A DNA stretch of 64,000 nucleotides, taken from the NCBI RefSeq assembly GCF_943181435.1, contig NZ_OW969598.1, positions 558,001 to 622,000 of the forward strand, read 5' to 3'. Of the stretch, positions 3,888 through 15,400 are shown in pieces. This DNA is from Neisseria sp. Marseille-Q6792 (GTDB lineage: Bacteria; Pseudomonadota; Gammaproteobacteria; Burkholderiales; Neisseriaceae). The notes under the pieces were generated by a model. It was not told where the DNA came from. It ran no database searches and was given only the letters and a program-made list of their open reading frames with translations. Made by a program: the position numbers and the translations under genes. The stretch's first letter is position 1, and each line of letters opens with the position of its first letter.

Positions 3888-5620
3888 AAAATACCGAAAC
3901 AGCGAAGCAGGAAAGCACCAAAGACTACAACCTTGAGAATATCGAGCCATTCCGCCCACACCCACGCTTTGAAATCGACAATCGGGGCGTATGGTGGATA
4001 AACGTTAGAACCGACAAAGACGGAGATATTATCGAAGCAGAGCCGCTATTACTTTCCGACCCTATCGACATTATTGGCACAGGGCAAGACAATGACGGCG
4101 CGTATTATCGGATTATCAAGTTCAAAGACAAAATCACACGCCAACAAAAGACCGCCGCCCTGCCACAAGCTGAAATTGCCGACGGGAAATGCTGGGGGCG
4201 TTTGGGGTTTTACGGCTTATCCATTGAGAGCAACCCAACAAAAAGGCGAAAACTGGCAGACTATTTGCAGAAAGAGGGAAGCCAGACAGCCTTTACCATT
4301 ACCGACCGCGCGGGCTGGCACAAAGACACCTACATCATGCCTAGCGGGGAAACCATCACGGCGACCGACAAAGACCCCGCCATTATCTATAACGGAGACA
4401 CCAGCCAAGCAAAGGCATATCAGCCAAACGGAAAGCTTACCGACTGGCAACAAAACATAGCCCGATACGCGGCAGGGAATAGCCGTCTATGCCTTGCTTT
4501 GGGGGCTTCATTTGCCGCCCCATTGCTTTCCCTGTTAAACGAAGAATCGGGGGGCTTCCACCTAATGGGCGATTCTTCAGACGGTAAAACCACAGCCGCA
4601 AAAGTAGCCTTGAGCGTATGGGGCAAACCATCAGGAAGCCTGTTGTCTTGGAGCGGTACGAAAATAGGCTTTTCCAACACAGCCGCCGCCCGTAATGATG
4701 GCTTGCTGGTGTTGGATGAAATAGGACAAGCAAGCCCACACGTTATCGGCGATACTGTTTATAGCGTTATGAACGGTATCAACAAAGTACAGGGCGCAAA
4801 ACAGGGTGGAAACCGCGCCTTGAGCCGCTGGAAAGTGATGATGTTTTCCACTGGAGAAAAGACCCCCGATTCCATCCTGAAACACCACAAAGGCGATTGG
4901 AACGCAGGACAAGCAGCCCGCTTACCCAGTATCAGAGCCGCCGCGCAATACGGCATTTATGACACCTTACACGGATTTGAAGACGGCGCATTGTTGAGTG
5001 AGCATATCGCCCAATCAGCAGAAAAATATCACGGAACGGCAGGAAGACTATTTATCCGACAGCTTTTAGACGACCTAGAACAAGCCAAGCAGCAGGCAAC
5101 AGAGCGCATAGCCGCATTTATGGCAACCATTCCCGAATTATCAGGACAGGCGCGAAGAGTAGCAAAACGCTTTGCCATTGCCGCCGCTGCTTTGGAGCTT
5201 GCCGCCCCTGTTACTGGTTTGCCCATAGGCGTAGGCATGGCAGGCGTGAAACAATGCTTTGATGAATGGCTGGAAGCCAACGGAGCAGGAAAACACGAAG
5301 ACCGCCGCATCATTGAGCAGGCAGAGGACTTTATCGACTTATACGCGCTAGGCATGAGGTTTATGGAATGGAGCGATAAAAGCACCAACAAAGACCATGC
5401 AGGCTATCGGAAACAGGAGGGGGAGAAATTAGAATTGTGGGTAATCCGCCGTGTCTTTGCCGATGAAATCGCCCAAAGTTTCGATGAACAAAAAGTCTGC
5501 CGCGTGTTGTTAGACGGGGGATTACTGAAATACAACCACAAAAACAAAGGCTACCAACACCAGCGCAAAGGTAGCGGCTGGTTTTATGTGCTGACCCCCG
5601 ATATGGAACTGGACGACTGA
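3884..5620 (+). CDS. DUF927 superfamily replicative helicase
   Basis: 578 residues. A DUF927 domain spans roughly residues 130-420, with a Walker A-like GDSSDGKTTAA at about 228-238, a Walker B-like GLLVLDEIGQA at about 272, and the family's RALSRWKVMMFSTGE block at about 315. DUF927 proteins are superfamily 3-like helicases that accompany primases in phages, plasmids and islands. With the overlapping primase and the iteron array about 380 bases downstream, this looks like the initiator/helicase of the element. It is followed by a strong terminator. Confidence 0.85.
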   Translation: MKNTETAKQESTKDYNLENIEPFRPHPRFEIDNRGVWWINVRTDKDGDIIEAEPLLLSDPIDIIGTGQDNDGAYYRIIKFKDKITRQQKTAALPQAEIADGKCWGRLGFYGLSIESNPTKRRKLADYLQKEGSQTAFTITDRAGWHKDTYIMPSGETITATDKDPAIIYNGDTSQAKAYQPNGKLTDWQQNIARYAAGNSRLCLALGASFAAPLLSLLNEESGGFHLMGDSSDGKTTAAKVALSVWGKPSGSLLSWSGTKIGFSNTAAARNDGLLVLDEIGQASPHVIGDTVYSVMNGINKVQGAKQGGNRALSRWKVMMFSTGEKTPDSILKHHKGDWNAGQAARLPSIRAAAQYGIYDTLHGFEDGALLSEHIAQSAEKYHGTAGRLFIRQLLDDLEQAKQQATERIAAFMATIPELSGQARRVAKRFAIAAAALELAAPVTGLPIGVGMAGVKQCFDEWLEANGAGKHEDRRIIEQAEDFIDLYALGMRFMEWSDKSTNKDHAGYRKQEGEKLELWVIRRVFADEIAQSFDEQKVCRVLLDGGLLKYNHKNKGYQHQRKGSGWFYVLTPDMELDD

Positions 5621-9785: not shown

Positions 9786-9999
9786 CGGCTTTCTCTGTCG
9801 GTTCCCATTAATCGGCGGCCGGTCAAACCGCCTGCCACGGTTTAGAGTTAATTTTCTAAGTTTTATACCATAAACTTACCTAAGCAACAATGATTATCGG
9901 ACAGCTTTAATAACTCACAACGTAGCAGCTACAGCCATTTCCAAATTTAATTATGAAATATTAAAAGATAACATATTGATTTTTAATAAAAATTAATTA

Positions 10000-10036
10000 T
10001 TTACATTATATATATATATATATATATATATATAAT
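10000..10036 (+). promoter_or_regulatory. Candidate phase-variable promoter of the RiPP operon
   Basis: TTTACA at 10000-10005 differs from the consensus -35 box at one position. TATAAT at 10031-10036 is a perfect -10 box. The 25-base spacer consists almost entirely of TA repeats, so slippage would move the two boxes in 2-base steps; four fewer TA units would give the ideal 17 bases. It lies about 50 bases upstream of the precursor gene. A TATATA inside the tract could act as an alternative -10 box. Confidence 0.55.
10007..10034. repeat. Dinucleotide microsatellite (TA)14
   Basis: Fourteen uninterrupted TA units between a -35-like box and a -10 box. Tracts of this kind mutate by slipped-strand mispairing. 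The 9786-10088 gap otherwise holds only AT-rich sequence. Confidence 0.95.
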
Positions 10037-10088
10037 GGGATTCTTAATGCTTTATTGAATCTTTCTAACCAATACTATGGAGTCTTAA

Positions 10089-10238
10089 ATGCTGAATAAA
10101 AATCACTCAGTTGACCAAAAAATGCCTATTAACCACCCATTACTTTCTCGATTGATTAAAGAAGTTGAGAATGAGCAGAAAACAGCGATGATGTTCAAAT
10201 ATGACCGCACGCACAACCGTCATAATCGTGGTCAGTAA
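10089..10238 (+). CDS. RiPP precursor peptide, triceptide/YhhA-like core YDR-T-HNR-HNR
   Basis: A 49-residue peptide from ATG 10089, with GGAG at 10079-10082 six bases upstream. The N-terminal part is a leader (HPLLSRLIKEVENEQKTAM at about 16-34, amphipathic and charged). The C-terminus carries three aromatic-X-Arg motifs: Y38-D-R40, H42-N-R44 and H45-N-R47, then GQ. This is the substrate pattern of cyclophane-forming radical SAM enzymes, which join an aromatic ring to the beta-carbon of the third residue. The maturase gene starts 9 bases after its stop. Three motifs led by Y, H, H fit the name YhhA that I recall for such precursors; that match is from memory. Mature activity is unknown. Confidence 0.8.
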   Translation: MLNKNHSVDQKMPINHPLLSRLIKEVENEQKTAMMFKYDRTHNRHNRGQ

Positions 10239-10247
10239 TATCAGATT

Positions 10248-11357
10248 ATGATTGATACTGTTTTATTGAAAGTCGCCAGTAGGTGCAATCTGAATTGCAC
10301 CTACTGTTATGTGTACCATTTAGGCGATGACGGTTGGAAAGATAATCCAAAACTGCTTAGTGAAAAGAGCATTGACGATATTGAAAAATCTTTGTTTGAC
10401 TTATACTCTTTTCAAGGAAAAAGTTTTGCAATTGTTCTTCATGGAGGCGAACCCTTTTTATTGCCAAAACATCGGCTTGAATATTTATTGAAAAAATTGC
10501 GGCATCGATTACCTGAATACACTACTGTTTCAATTCAAACTAACGGGCTTCTTCTTACAGAAGAATTGATTACACTTTGTTATACATATAACGTAACCAT
10601 TTCTATCAGCTTGGATGGTCCGCAAAACATCAATGATGAAATGAGGCTGGATCATTTAGGACGTGGTTCATTTTACCGCATTATGGATAGTCTTCGCCTA
10701 ATAAAAAATCATCCATTTTCAAATCAAGTTTTTACTGGTTGCTTGGCTGTTATTAACCCTTTAAGCAACCCTAAAGAGGTTTATAATTTTTTTAAAAAAT
10801 TAAATATTCCAAGTGTTAATTTCTTAATGAGAGACGGCAATCATGACCGATACCCTTTTGGAAAATCAAGTTTTGAATCATTAGAATATGGAAAATGGCT
10901 GGAATCTTTATGGAATTTATATTTTTATGACCCCAACCCTATCCCTATAGCATTTTTTGATAACTACGTCAAACTGCTGATTGGAGGATTTAGTTCGAAA
11001 GAAGGGACGGGAACTGAAACTTCAGGCATTTTGATTATTGATACAAATGGAGATATTACCAAGAACGATACCCTAAAGAGTACAAAAAATCGGGCAGACA
11101 GATTCGAGTTTTCGTGGAATGTATCCAAGAATAATTTAATTGAACTAATCCAATCTAATGAATTTAAAGATTACCTGAAACTTCAAAATCCGATATCAAA
11201 AGAATGTAAAAATTGTCGATATTTATCAATCTGTGGCGGTGGGATGCCCCTATATCGTTGGAGTGATAAAAACGGATTTGATAATCCATCCGTATTCTGC
11301 CAAGATCATATACATATCATTGAAACCATATCAAACACATTAGAAAAATACCTATGA
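10248..11357 (+). CDS. Radical SAM/SPASM peptide maturase, cyclophane-forming (YhhB-like)
   Basis: 369 residues. The radical SAM cluster motif is C13-x3-C17-x2-C20, followed by YVYH and the family's LHGGEPFLLP segment near residue 75. A SPASM-type C-terminus has C320, C323, C329 (CKNCRYLSICGGG) and C351 for auxiliary iron-sulfur clusters. Maturases of this kind form aromatic-to-aliphatic C-C crosslinks in precursor peptides (triceptides). The precursor with three matching motifs lies immediately upstream and the oxygenase overlaps downstream, making one operon. GC content is well below that of the neighbouring core genes, suggesting horizontal acquisition. The RiPP maturase role is well supported; the exact crosslink is inferred. 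Confidence 0.85.
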   Translation: MIDTVLLKVASRCNLNCTYCYVYHLGDDGWKDNPKLLSEKSIDDIEKSLFDLYSFQGKSFAIVLHGGEPFLLPKHRLEYLLKKLRHRLPEYTTVSIQTNGLLLTEELITLCYTYNVTISISLDGPQNINDEMRLDHLGRGSFYRIMDSLRLIKNHPFSNQVFTGCLAVINPLSNPKEVYNFFKKLNIPSVNFLMRDGNHDRYPFGKSSFESLEYGKWLESLWNLYFYDPNPIPIAFFDNYVKLLIGGFSSKEGTGTETSGILIIDTNGDITKNDTLKSTKNRADRFEFSWNVSKNNLIELIQSNEFKDYLKLQNPISKECKNCRYLSICGGGMPLYRWSDKNGFDNPSVFCQDHIHIIETISNTLEKYL

Positions 11358-11941
11358 AGATAAATACAAATAATATTCAATGCAATAAAATACCTTTTCC
11401 TCATGCTTTTTCTAAAAATTTTTTAGACGGGCAACAAGCAAAAGATATTTTAGAATGGTTGGAAATTGCCCCTTGGCATTTAACTGTTACAGATTTCTAC
11501 AGCCAGTACGAATTTTTACTTGATATACAGAATGTACCAAAAAATCTACAATTTTTGATTAGTGATGAAACAAAACAAAGATTAAAGAATTTAATGGAGA
11601 ATTTATTTTCATGCCGACTAAAGGATACTGTCGAGATAGTTGCCCATCGCTTATTAGACAATCAAATCATCAAAATTCACAATGATTACATTGAAGAGGC
11701 TGATTTCGAAGCCGAATCGCATCGCCTGCTTATTCAACTAAATCACGGCTGGTCTGCTGATAATGGAGGATATTTAATGATTTTTAACAGCAAAAATCCA
11801 CAGGATATAGCCAATATAATTTTACCGGAGCATCGAAGTATGTTTGCATTTGAAATATCAAAAGAATCTCATCACGCCGTTAGCAAAATTTATTCCGGTT
11901 GCCGCTACACCCTGATTTTTAATTTCTACAGAATTATTTGA
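11354..11941 (+). CDS. 2OG-Fe(II) oxygenase of the RiPP operon (YhhC-like)
   Basis: 195 residues. The metal-binding set typical of 2-oxoglutarate/iron oxygenases is visible: H109-x-D111 (KIHNDY), a distal His at 174 (SHHAVSKI) and R184 (GCRYTLIF) for 2-oxoglutarate. In between, the HRLLIQLNHGW and GGYLMIF strands fit the double-stranded beta-helix fold. It overlaps the maturase stop by 4 bases (ATGA). It probably hydroxylates the crosslinked peptide, as in related clusters that pair these two enzymes. No peptidase or exporter is encoded next to it. Confidence 0.8.
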   Translation: MKINTNNIQCNKIPFPHAFSKNFLDGQQAKDILEWLEIAPWHLTVTDFYSQYEFLLDIQNVPKNLQFLISDETKQRLKNLMENLFSCRLKDTVEIVAHRLLDNQIIKIHNDYIEEADFEAESHRLLIQLNHGWSADNGGYLMIFNSKNPQDIANIILPEHRSMFAFEISKESHHAVSKIYSGCRYTLIFNFYRII

Positions 11942-11960: not shown

Positions 11961-11999
11961 CATGACGACATATAAAGCATCGCTCTATGTGTCGTCATG
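11961..11999 (+). terminator. Hairpin after the RiPP operon
   Basis: CATGACGACA (11961-11970) pairs perfectly with TGTCGTCATG (11990-11999). It is placed 20 bases after the oxygenase stop but lacks a T-run, so it may be an mRNA-stabilising or weak terminating stem. The rest of the 11942-12401 gap shows no gene I can support. Confidence 0.45.
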
Positions 12000-12401
12000 A
12001 ACAGGGGGCGGTTACTTCTGTATCCGATTAGATTCTATCGCCCTGAATAGCAAGGTTTTAATCAAAAAGAAAAGCAATGCGCCCCTTACAGCGGGATGCA
12101 ATGAGATAAAGATTCTCTTCTCCTTGATACTAAATAATGCCGATATGTCTTATATTTTCATTTCGTAACCTCACTTTGCCTTGCCATTTGAAAAGCTGAA
12201 ACTTACTATCCGGTAGCAAAGGTAGCGTTTTACACATCCTTTTTTCCCATAAAATCAAGTTTTCTCCGTCATACAAAAGCCGTTTAAAAAACCAAGCAAG
12301 TATCCTATTCTTAATCTGTTAAAATTCCATCTATACAACCTGACTAACCCCGAAGCGGCTCGAAATTTTTTCCAGCTGCCGCAAACCATTATCCCTACGC
12401 C

Positions 12402-15400
12402 ATGACCTACCCCATCCCCAAACCCCGTGAAAAATCCCGTTGGTTCAACCTTTCGCAAGGCTCGCTGCCCTTGGCTTTGGCGCGTTATCTGCCGCACAAG
12501 CGGCTTAAAGTCGTGCTGACCCAAGATGCGGAACAGGCGTTGCGCCTTCAGACGGCGTGGCGGTTTTTCCGTCCGCACGATACGGCGGTGTTCCTGCCGG
12601 ACTGGGAAACGCTGCCTTACGAGCGTTTTTCGCCGCATCAGGACTTGGTGTCGGAGCGGCTGTCGGCGTTGTGGCAGATTAAAAGCGGCGCGGCGGATGT
12701 GTTGTTTGTGCCGGTTGCCACGGCGATGCAGAAGCTGCCGCCTGTGCCGTTTCTGGCAGGGCGCACGTTTTGGCTGAAAACGGGGCAGACTTTGGATATA
12801 GGCCGTCTGAAAAGCGATTTAGTGGATGCGGGCTACAACCATGTGTCCCACGTTGTTGCGGCAGGCGAGTTTGCCGTGCGTGGCGGTATTGTCGATTTGT
12901 TCCCGATGGGCAGCGAAATGCCGTACCGCATCGATTTGTTCGACGATGAAATCGACAGCATCAAAACCTTTGACACCGAGACGCAGCGCACCATCTCCCC
13001 CGTTTCCGAAATCCGCCTGCTGCCGGCACACGAGTTCCCCACCGACAGCGAGGCGCAAAAGATTTTCCGCAGCCGCTTCCGAGAAGAAGTCGACGGTAAT
13101 CCGAACGATGCGGCCGTGTACAAAGCCGTCAGCAACGGCCATTTCGGTGCAGGCGTAGAATATTATCTGCCGCTGTTTTTTGAAAACGAGCTGGAAACGC
13201 TGTTTGACTATATCGGCGAAGATGCGCTCTTTGTCTCTTTGGGCGATGTTCACGCCGAGGCAAACCGTTTTTGGAGCGACGTTAAATCGCGTTACGCCAT
13301 GGCGCAGGGCGACGAAACCTATCCGCCTTTGCTTCCACAGCATTTGTATCTCTCTGCCGACGTATTCGCAGGCCGTCTGAAAAACTACGGACAAGTTCTG
13401 CCCGATGTTTCTGGCAAGGAACACACCCTGCCCGACCTTGCCGTCAACCGCCAATCCGACGAGCCTTTGCAGGCATTGAAGGACTTTCAGACGGCGTTTG
13501 AAGGACGGATTTTGCTGTGCGCCGAAAGTTTGGGACGGCGCGAAACCATGCTCGGTTTCTTGCAGCAAAACGGTTTGAAAGCCAAACCCGTGTCCGACTG
13601 GCAGGGCTTTTTATCGGCACACGAGCCGCTGATGATTGCAGTCGCGCCGTTGGCATACGGGTTCAAACTGGGCGGACTGCAATCGCCGAACCAACAGCAA
13701 GCTGATCCCGCCTCCGAAGGAGAAGGCGATGCGATTACCGACCAAACCGAATTTTCCGCATCCGCAACAAACCCTCTCCCTAGCCCTCTCCCACAGGAGA
13801 GGGAACAAAGTGCCGCCGCCGTTTCAGACAGTCTGAAAACCAAAAGCAGCCTGTACCCCATCGAAAATAGTCTGCACGGGCAGATCCGACAGCAACCTGC
13901 CCCCTCCCCTGTGGGGGAGGGTTGGGGAGAGGGCAAAGCGGTTGCCGCTCAAAGCACCATCGCCGTTATCACCGAATCCGACCTCTACCAATACGTCGCC
14001 CGTTCGCGCGTCCACAACCGCCGCAAGAAACACGCCGCCGTTTCAGACGGCCTGTTGCGCGACCTTGCCGAAATCAATATCGGCGACCCCGTCGTGCACG
14101 AAGAACACGGCATCGGGCGGTATATGGGCTTGGTCACAATGGACTTGGGCGGCGAAACCAACGAAATGATGTTGCTCGAATACGCAGGCGAAGCGCAACT
14201 TTATGTGCCTGTTTCGCAACTGCATTTAATCAGCCGCTACTCCGGTCAGGCGCATGAAAACGTCGCCCTGCACAAGCTCGGCAGCGGCGCGTGGAACAAG
14301 GCGAAGCGCAAAGCCGCCGAAAAAGCGCGCGATACCGCCGCCGAGTTGCTCAACCTCTACGCCCAACGCGCCGCCCAATCGGGACACAAGTTTGAAATCA
14401 ACGAGTTGGACTATCAGGCGTTTGCCGACGGTTTCGGCTACGAAGAAACCGAAGACCAGGCAGCCGCCATTGCCGCCGTGATTAAAGACTTGACACAGGC
14501 GAAGCCGATGGACCGCCTTGTGTGCGGCGATGTCGGTTTCGGCAAAACCGAAGTCGCCCTACGCGCCGCGTTTGTGGCGGTAATGGGTGGCAAACAGGTC
14601 GCCGTACTCGCCCCGACTACGCTTTTGGTCGAGCAGCACGCGCAAAACTTCGCCGACCGCTTCGCCGATTTCCCCGTGAAAGTCGCCGGCCTTTCGCGTT
14701 TCAATAACAGCAAAGCCACCAAAGCCGCACTGGAAGGTATGGCGGACGGCACGGTCGATATTGTTATCGGTACGCACAAATTGGTGCAGGACGACATCAA
14801 ATTCAAAAACTTAGGTTTAGTGATTATCGATGAAGAACACCGCTTCGGCGTGCGCCAGAAAGAACAGCTCAAGCGCCTGCGCGCCAATGTCGATATCCTT
14901 ACCATGACCGCCACGCCGATTCCGCGTACTTTAAGTATGGCGTTGGAAGGACTGCGCGACTTTTCGCTGATTACCACCGCGCCCAGCCGCCGCCTTGCCG
15001 TGAAAACGTTTGTCAAACCCTTTAGTGAAGGCAGCGTGCGCGAAGCCGTGTTGCGCGAACTCAAACGCGGCGGGCAGGTATTTTTCCTGCACAATGAAGT
15101 GGATACCATCGAAAACATGCGCGAGCGGCTGGAAACCCTGCTGCCCGAAGCCCGCATCGGCGTGGCGCACGGGCAACTGCGCGAGCGCGAGCTGGAGCAA
15201 GTGATGCGCGACTTTTTGCAACAAAGATTTAACGTGTTGCTCTGTTCCACCATCATCGAAACCGGTATCGACATCCCCAACGCCAACACCATCATCATCA
15301 ACCGTGCCGACAAATTCGGACTGGCGCAACTGCACCAGCTTCGCGGGCGTGTCGGCCGCAGCCATCACCAAGCCTACGCCTACCTGCTCACGCCCGAATA

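Follow-up and report, generated by a model that had tools for sequence, protein, structure and literature searches.

A TA repeat of differing length in the candidate promoter of a yhhABC triceptide operon in Neisseria

A TA dinucleotide repeat of differing length lies between the candidate promoter hexamers of a yhhABC operon in Neisseria, and it is this repeat – rather than the operon itself – that is newly found here. The operon stands in a stretch of 64,000 nucleotides that was analysed as a whole (hereafter the window). Judging from sequence, we consider it probable that an acquired YhhABC operon specifies a three-ring peptide and that a repeat prone to slippage, located in the promoter spacer, controls how far it is transcribed. 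With slightly less assurance we lean towards the narrower claim that this RiPP is produced in a phase-variable manner, the TA or T repeat of the spacer causing each Neisseria population to mix makers and non-makers.

The operon as such was already known: on its profile matches it is a member of the YhhABC triceptide family. Family calls were made by hmmscan against NCBIfam with curated equivalog cut-offs, and three neighbouring ORFs each above such a cut-off (Table 1) are far more than chance would provide. The genes are tightly packed, with a gap of 9 bases between yhhA and yhhB and an overlap of 4 bases between yhhB and yhhC. An earlier, sequence-only reading of this DNA had given the gene positions, the gap and the overlap exactly; the name YhhABC, which it offered, was right for three of three proteins, and the profile search against RiPP families that it proposed placed YhhA, YhhB and YhhC above cut-off. 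It had also noted that exporter and peptidase are missing, and among the ORFs between the acyl-CoA dehydrogenase-like gene and mfd we found no exporter, immunity gene or peptidase. What it overlooked was the promoter repeat upstream of yhhA. The closest named YhhA is from Neisseria bergeri (92% identity) and the closest named YhhC from N. lactamica (99% identity), so that the window probably derives from N. lactamica or a near relative; the characterised YhhB, WP_013448981.1, may well be from N. lactamica too, an assumption that we base on accession ranges. Comparison with the described YhhABC system (NF041705, NF041707, NF041706; YhhB WP_013448981.1, PMC11002830) revealed the same Tyr-X-Arg and His-X-Arg motif types and no protein difference from the window set; a repeat promoter is absent from the portion of that text available.

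Table 1. Promoter elements and genes of the yhh operon, numbered from the first letter of the window; L001, L002 and L003 are the yhh loci of genomes G040, G006 and G033
Feature	Position	Strand	Basis and remarks
TTTACA, candidate -35	10000-10005	+	identical hexamer in window, L001 and L002; TTGACA in L003
(TA)14 tract	10007-10034	+	Tandem Repeats Finder; occupies the 25-bp spacer 10006-10030 and extends into the -10
TATAAT, candidate -10	10031-10036	+	identical in window, L001 and L002; TACAAT in L003
yhhA, precursor peptide	10089-10238	+	49 aa; NF041705 56.1 bits vs cut-off 36; alignment
yhhB, cyclophane-forming radical SAM/SPASM maturase	10248-11357	+	369 aa; NF041707 524.4 bits vs cut-off 445; invariant Cys
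yhhC, 2OG-Fe(II) oxygenase	11354-11941	+	195 aa; NF041706 261.4 bits vs cut-off 150

YhhA comprises a leader with the motif LxRLIxEV and a core YDR-T-HNR-HNR, its C-terminal end reading KYDRTHNRHNRGQ. The three aromatic-X-Arg motifs that had been noticed at the C-terminus are indeed present (Y38-D-R40, H42-N-R44 and H45-N-R47). Their loss from homologous precursors had been named beforehand as what would speak against the sequence-only reading; homologues keep them. We aligned 12 precursors from Neisseria, Paucibacter, Methylomicrobium, an acidobacterium, a Hymenobacter and Xanthomonas cucurbitae, together with one genome of the same order and two further proteins, several rows being near-identical Neisseria sequences. 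R40, N43, H45, N46 and R47 are invariant across this set; the first core aromatic is Tyr in 11 and Phe in one, the second His in 10, Tyr in one and Phe in one, and R44 is replaced by Lys in a single precursor. The common pattern consists of L-x-R-L, an E-V that hardly varies, and Y/F-x-R-x-[HYF]-N-[RK]-H-N-R. All nine precursors scanned at related loci, one of them identical to that of the window, score above the YhhA cut-off (46.5-62.5 bits against 36). Across 369 genomes of the class the YhhA model had a single match (22.3 bits against 36, with an internal stop), which was discarded.

The enzymes bear the residues ascribed to them at the outset. In YhhB the CX3CX2C motif (C13, C17 and C20) and the further cysteines C320, C323, C329 and C351 are invariant in 18 of 18 aligned proteins; the Pfam SPASM model reaches 13.1 bits, under its cut-off of 21.5, so that the label 'SPASM' rests on the conserved cysteines and the NCBIfam family name. 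YhhB falls in the same radical SAM/SPASM group as the cyclophane maturases of the FxsB, XyeB and ChlB type, but remains under the curated cut-offs of the FxsB/XyeB-type models (TIGR04269, 279.8 bits against 370; TIGR04496, 178.3 against 450); its nearest solved relative by sequence is the ChlB radical SAM domain (PDB 9gm3). The HxD...H...R set of YhhC (H109, D111, H174 and R184) is invariant in 21 of 21 aligned proteins, and an AlphaFold2 model (pLDDT 95.0) predicts a 2OG-Fe(II) oxygenase fold with OGFOD1, PolD and PasI as best PDB matches. Family name and confident fold lend support to the earlier idea of hydroxylation, and Sugiyama et al. 2022 are said to have shown the YhhABC hydroxylase acting on ring residues.

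The expected product is a small peptide carrying three cyclophane rings of three residues each. YhhB would link the side-chain rings of Tyr and of both His to Cβ of the Arg that stands two positions further on, at a cost of 2 Da each, and YhhC would hydroxylate ring residues after cross-linking. We infer these steps from the family to which the proteins belong. For that family the cross-links have been published, Tyr C3 and His C2 being the atoms bound to Arg Cβ (PMC11002830), and the Tyr/His-to-Arg linkage first proposed from sequence agrees with that chemistry.

Evidence that the repeat belongs to the promoter comes from comparison of four Neisseria yhh loci: the window, L001, L002 and L003. 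In all four a long repeat sits between the -35 and -10 hexamers, these being called as consensus matches only. The spacer measures 25 bp in the window (14 TA units), 19 bp in L001 (11) and 9 bp in L002 (6), counts that draft assemblies can get wrong; tract length therefore differs between close relatives, each a different genome, while the two hexamers are retained and the distance from the -10 element to ATG stays at 52 bp. Between the window and L001 the 303-bp intergenic region shows one mismatch and a single indel – 6 bp of the repeat – and the 1853-bp operon 34 mismatches and no indel. Against L002 there are 23 mismatches, a one-base indel and a 16-bp indel of the repeat; the 1853-bp operon is free of indels among all three. 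In the divergent L003 the promoter (TTGACA and TACAAT, 11 of 12 consensus matches) has a 16-bp spacer ending in T, with a T12 run that continues into the -10 element. Six non-Neisseria yhh loci, inspected over as much as 300 bp upstream (for L109, 185 bp), contain no TA run of at least 4 and no homopolymer longer than 8; shorter runs (T7, A8 and C6) occur upstream of yhh in L027, L030 and L109. No near match to the promoter was found in plasmids or phages. A pattern match in a viral contig (L175), lacking yhh genes, was set aside as a chance match.

In sigma-70 promoters the optimal distance between the hexamers is 16-18 bp. A slippage-prone TA repeat filling this spacer would set transcription, each gain or loss of a unit shifting the spacing by 2 bp; TA steps give 15, 17 and 19 bp, and so the promoter should be ON near 17 bp (10 units, the expected optimum), weaker at 19 and OFF far away. 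On this scheme the window is predicted to be OFF or weak, G040 weak, G006 OFF and G033, with its T12 run and 16-bp spacer, ON; the predicted 17-bp optimum is found at none of the three TA loci. A TATATA 17 bp from TTTACA has 4 of 6 -10 consensus matches and might furnish a constant weak promoter. Since the block from the upstream region to yhhB is near-identical in window and L001 though its flanks are 92-95% identical, the tract would have changed by three units very recently. If the promoter is phase-variable, the poly-T that replaces TA in the operon at another site would point to selection for switchability as such and not for one particular promoter sequence.

What the peptide does is a separate matter. 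Its likeliest role – and we put this forward tentatively – is that of a released peptide, produced by only some of the cells and directed at neighbouring bacteria; we rank competition first since it would suit both this class of peptide and a switch at population level. A somewhat unlikely alternative is that the peptide serves internally, as a signal, metal ligand or cofactor and not as a weapon, with tract length tuning dose and no switch involved. The island's want of exporter, immunity gene and peptidase favours such a role, but the extreme spacers of 9 and 25 bp resemble OFF states more than fine tuning.

Phase variation has also to be weighed against a plainer account, which we regard as a little less probable still than the internal role: that this is an ordinary YhhABC operon driven by some other promoter or by read-in, the TA tract being neutral AT-rich DNA that slips without effect. 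The intergenic DNA upstream of yhhA is 30% G+C, and TA runs arise easily there; spacers of 25 and 9 bp make poor promoters; and shuffled sequence yields as many promoter-like sites, with 12 in the window against 11.0 expected (a scan from which the yhhA promoter is missing because its spacer falls outside the scan range) and 3 in L003 against 1.9, no enrichment in either. Yet both hexamers are kept while the tract changes, and in the divergent L003, whose promoter is close to consensus, the spacer holds a repeat of another kind. TA tracts of such length are, moreover, rare in the genus: (TA)9, a pattern too long for the 6-unit tract of G006, occurs in 2 of 46 Neisseria genomes, at the yhh promoter in G040 and at a single unrelated site between genes in G009. 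The latter (L167, G009:C1:1762109-1762132) lies in a genome in which no yhh operon was found. Within the window the tract is the sole period-2 row in Tandem Repeats Finder and the sole match among the repeat classes searched (T or A of at least 11, G or C of at least 9, TA or GC of 6 units, tetra- and pentanucleotides of 5 units).

The neutral account draws further strength from published work on Neisseria, in which dinucleotide tracts are reported invariant. A 2018 survey of 118 genomes, N. lactamica included, found the repeat number of dinucleotide tracts unchanged throughout its alignments and stated that none had yet been demonstrated to cause phase variation in Neisseria; a gonococcal study saw neither of its dinucleotide tracts differ, and a meningococcal study reported little copy-number variability for di- and trinucleotides. 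These are priors against phase variation at yhh, although the parts consulted do not name this locus. A precedent is the divergent hifA/hifB promoter of Haemophilus influenzae, where, according to the excerpts available, (TA)9-11 is proposed to alter the -10/-35 spacing and A12-A17 stands instead at other hifA loci. That promoter drives fimbriae and has 9-11 units, whereas the repeat described here precedes a RiPP operon and has 14 units (11 in G040); at the yhh promoter, switching is a prediction. Within Neisseria, porA has a repeat located in the promoter spacer. This repeat, (T)11C(G)6, is marked p in a published table; like other Neisseria promoter repeats it resembles the yhh tract in lying within a promoter, and differs in that these are homopolymers at surface proteins. 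Further sources are PMC2651432, PMC10885120, PMC5231331, PMC1097732 and PMC5953494. Among titles and abstract openings of the open-access literature we found no report that combines phase variation with RiPPs, or with simple sequence repeats or radical SAM enzymes in this connection.

The operon is patchily distributed. YhhB exceeds its cut-off in 3 of 46 Neisseria genomes, with weak matches in 20 more, and YhhC in 3 of 83 genomes of the family and 1 of 399 sampled in the order. Of the weak YhhB matches three were scanned: L004 and L005 proved to be anaerobic sulfatase maturases and were dropped, as was L006 (G009:C1:1410932-1411468), which belongs to the viperin family of antiviral radical SAM proteins (NF038283, 331.7 bits; cut-off 180). 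G+C content is 34% in the operon and 55% and 57% in the flanking genes. The gene mfd was matched in 43 of the 46 genomes and 30 mfd loci were fetched: two have yhhBC before mfd, 24 have neither yhhBC nor the dehydrogenase-like gene within 1.5 kb, and four are empty sites with an acyl-CoA dehydrogenase-like gene ~184-208 bp from mfd. The G033 operon occupies another chromosomal site, between different genes. Patchy occurrence, low G+C, empty sites and this second site together indicate an acquired island, and on these genomic grounds the YhhABC operon is horizontally acquired. Identity between window and L001 is 99.5% upstream, 100% in yhhA and 99.5% in yhhB, compared with 95.0% in the dehydrogenase-like gene, 95.9% in yhhC, 87% downstream and 92-94% in mfd; the mosaic between window positions 9786-11357 and G040 (L177) suggests recent recombination of the promoter-yhhA-yhhB block.

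Relatives lie well outside the genus. Among the matches listed (80 of 487) in a contig scan, none is named Neisseria; a tblastn search of plasmids with YhhB yielded 20 records, none of which reached 60% identity, and a viral-contig scan with YhhB found nothing. A 72-kb Vibrio echinoideorum plasmid (NZ_AP025485.1) encodes a yhhB-annotated maturase of 45.8% identity at 12297-13391, and is a possible vehicle for yhh-type operons. In the Xanthomonas cucurbitae locus L030 the yhhB frame (~4027-5115) looks broken, CX3CX2C and the remainder standing in different frames. Non-Neisseria operons (L026, L027, L029 and G175) share precursor, maturase and oxygenase with the window, and differ in lacking a long repeat upstream and in having an αKG-HExxH peptide hydroxylase adjoining yhhC: it follows yhhC in L026, L027 and L029 (TIGR04267 above cut-off), with a homologue beside yhhC in G175; L028 and L030 end too early to judge a fourth gene. 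The protein upstream in L027 matched nothing in a profile scan. The hydroxylase was not found in G040, G006 or G033 (the last 85% complete), and the Neisseria form is a minimal three-gene YhhABC. That this form is a decaying cluster, which lost the hydroxylase and drifts, its patchy occurrence and its repeat being symptoms of relaxed selection, is very improbable given three open ORFs in the window, L001, L002 and L003, an operon without indels in the first three, and a promoter-to-yhhB block exchanged so recently.

Some features of the neighbouring DNA deserve record. The codons of the yhhB CX3CX2C motif form a hairpin of 12-13 pairs at 10277-10306. Watson-Crick pairs number 12 of 12 in the window, L003 and L030, 9 in L026 and L109, 8 in L029 and 6 in L027 and L028; in a test designed after the window hairpin had been noticed, their sum over the eight loci (74) was reached by none of 20000 synonymous recodings (mean ~48), and p = 0.0004 without window and L003. 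At 39 other radical SAM loci pairs summed to 237 against 218 expected (p = 0.021), none above 9. A family-wide RNA element is ruled out by the 6 of 12 pairs in L027 and L028; our guess is that the hairpin may set the precursor-to-enzyme ratio. Just past yhhC, at 11961-11999, an inverted repeat with 14-base arms and one G-T pair (found by eye) may mark the end of the transcript, although it is not followed by a run of T. An in-frame insert of palindromic repeat-like DNA in mfd (13668-13957) is absent in G006, where the alignment has a gap, and present in at least 2 copies in L139, L141, L146 and L142/L177.

The significance of these observations depends on the repeat. If it does switch the promoter, Neisseria would have its first case of phase variation driven by a dinucleotide tract, and the operon would be, within the open-access literature searched, the first to encode a RiPP switched by a repeat; such a finding would amend the published view that Neisseria dinucleotide tracts stay constant, and one PCR product would tell whether an isolate makes the peptide. 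According to a 2022 review, no Neisseria bacteriocin had been genetically and biochemically characterised, and carriage of N. lactamica lowered meningococcal carriage in trials (PMC9263626). With a triceptide operon in this group, the part that such peptides play in a human niche could be tested directly.
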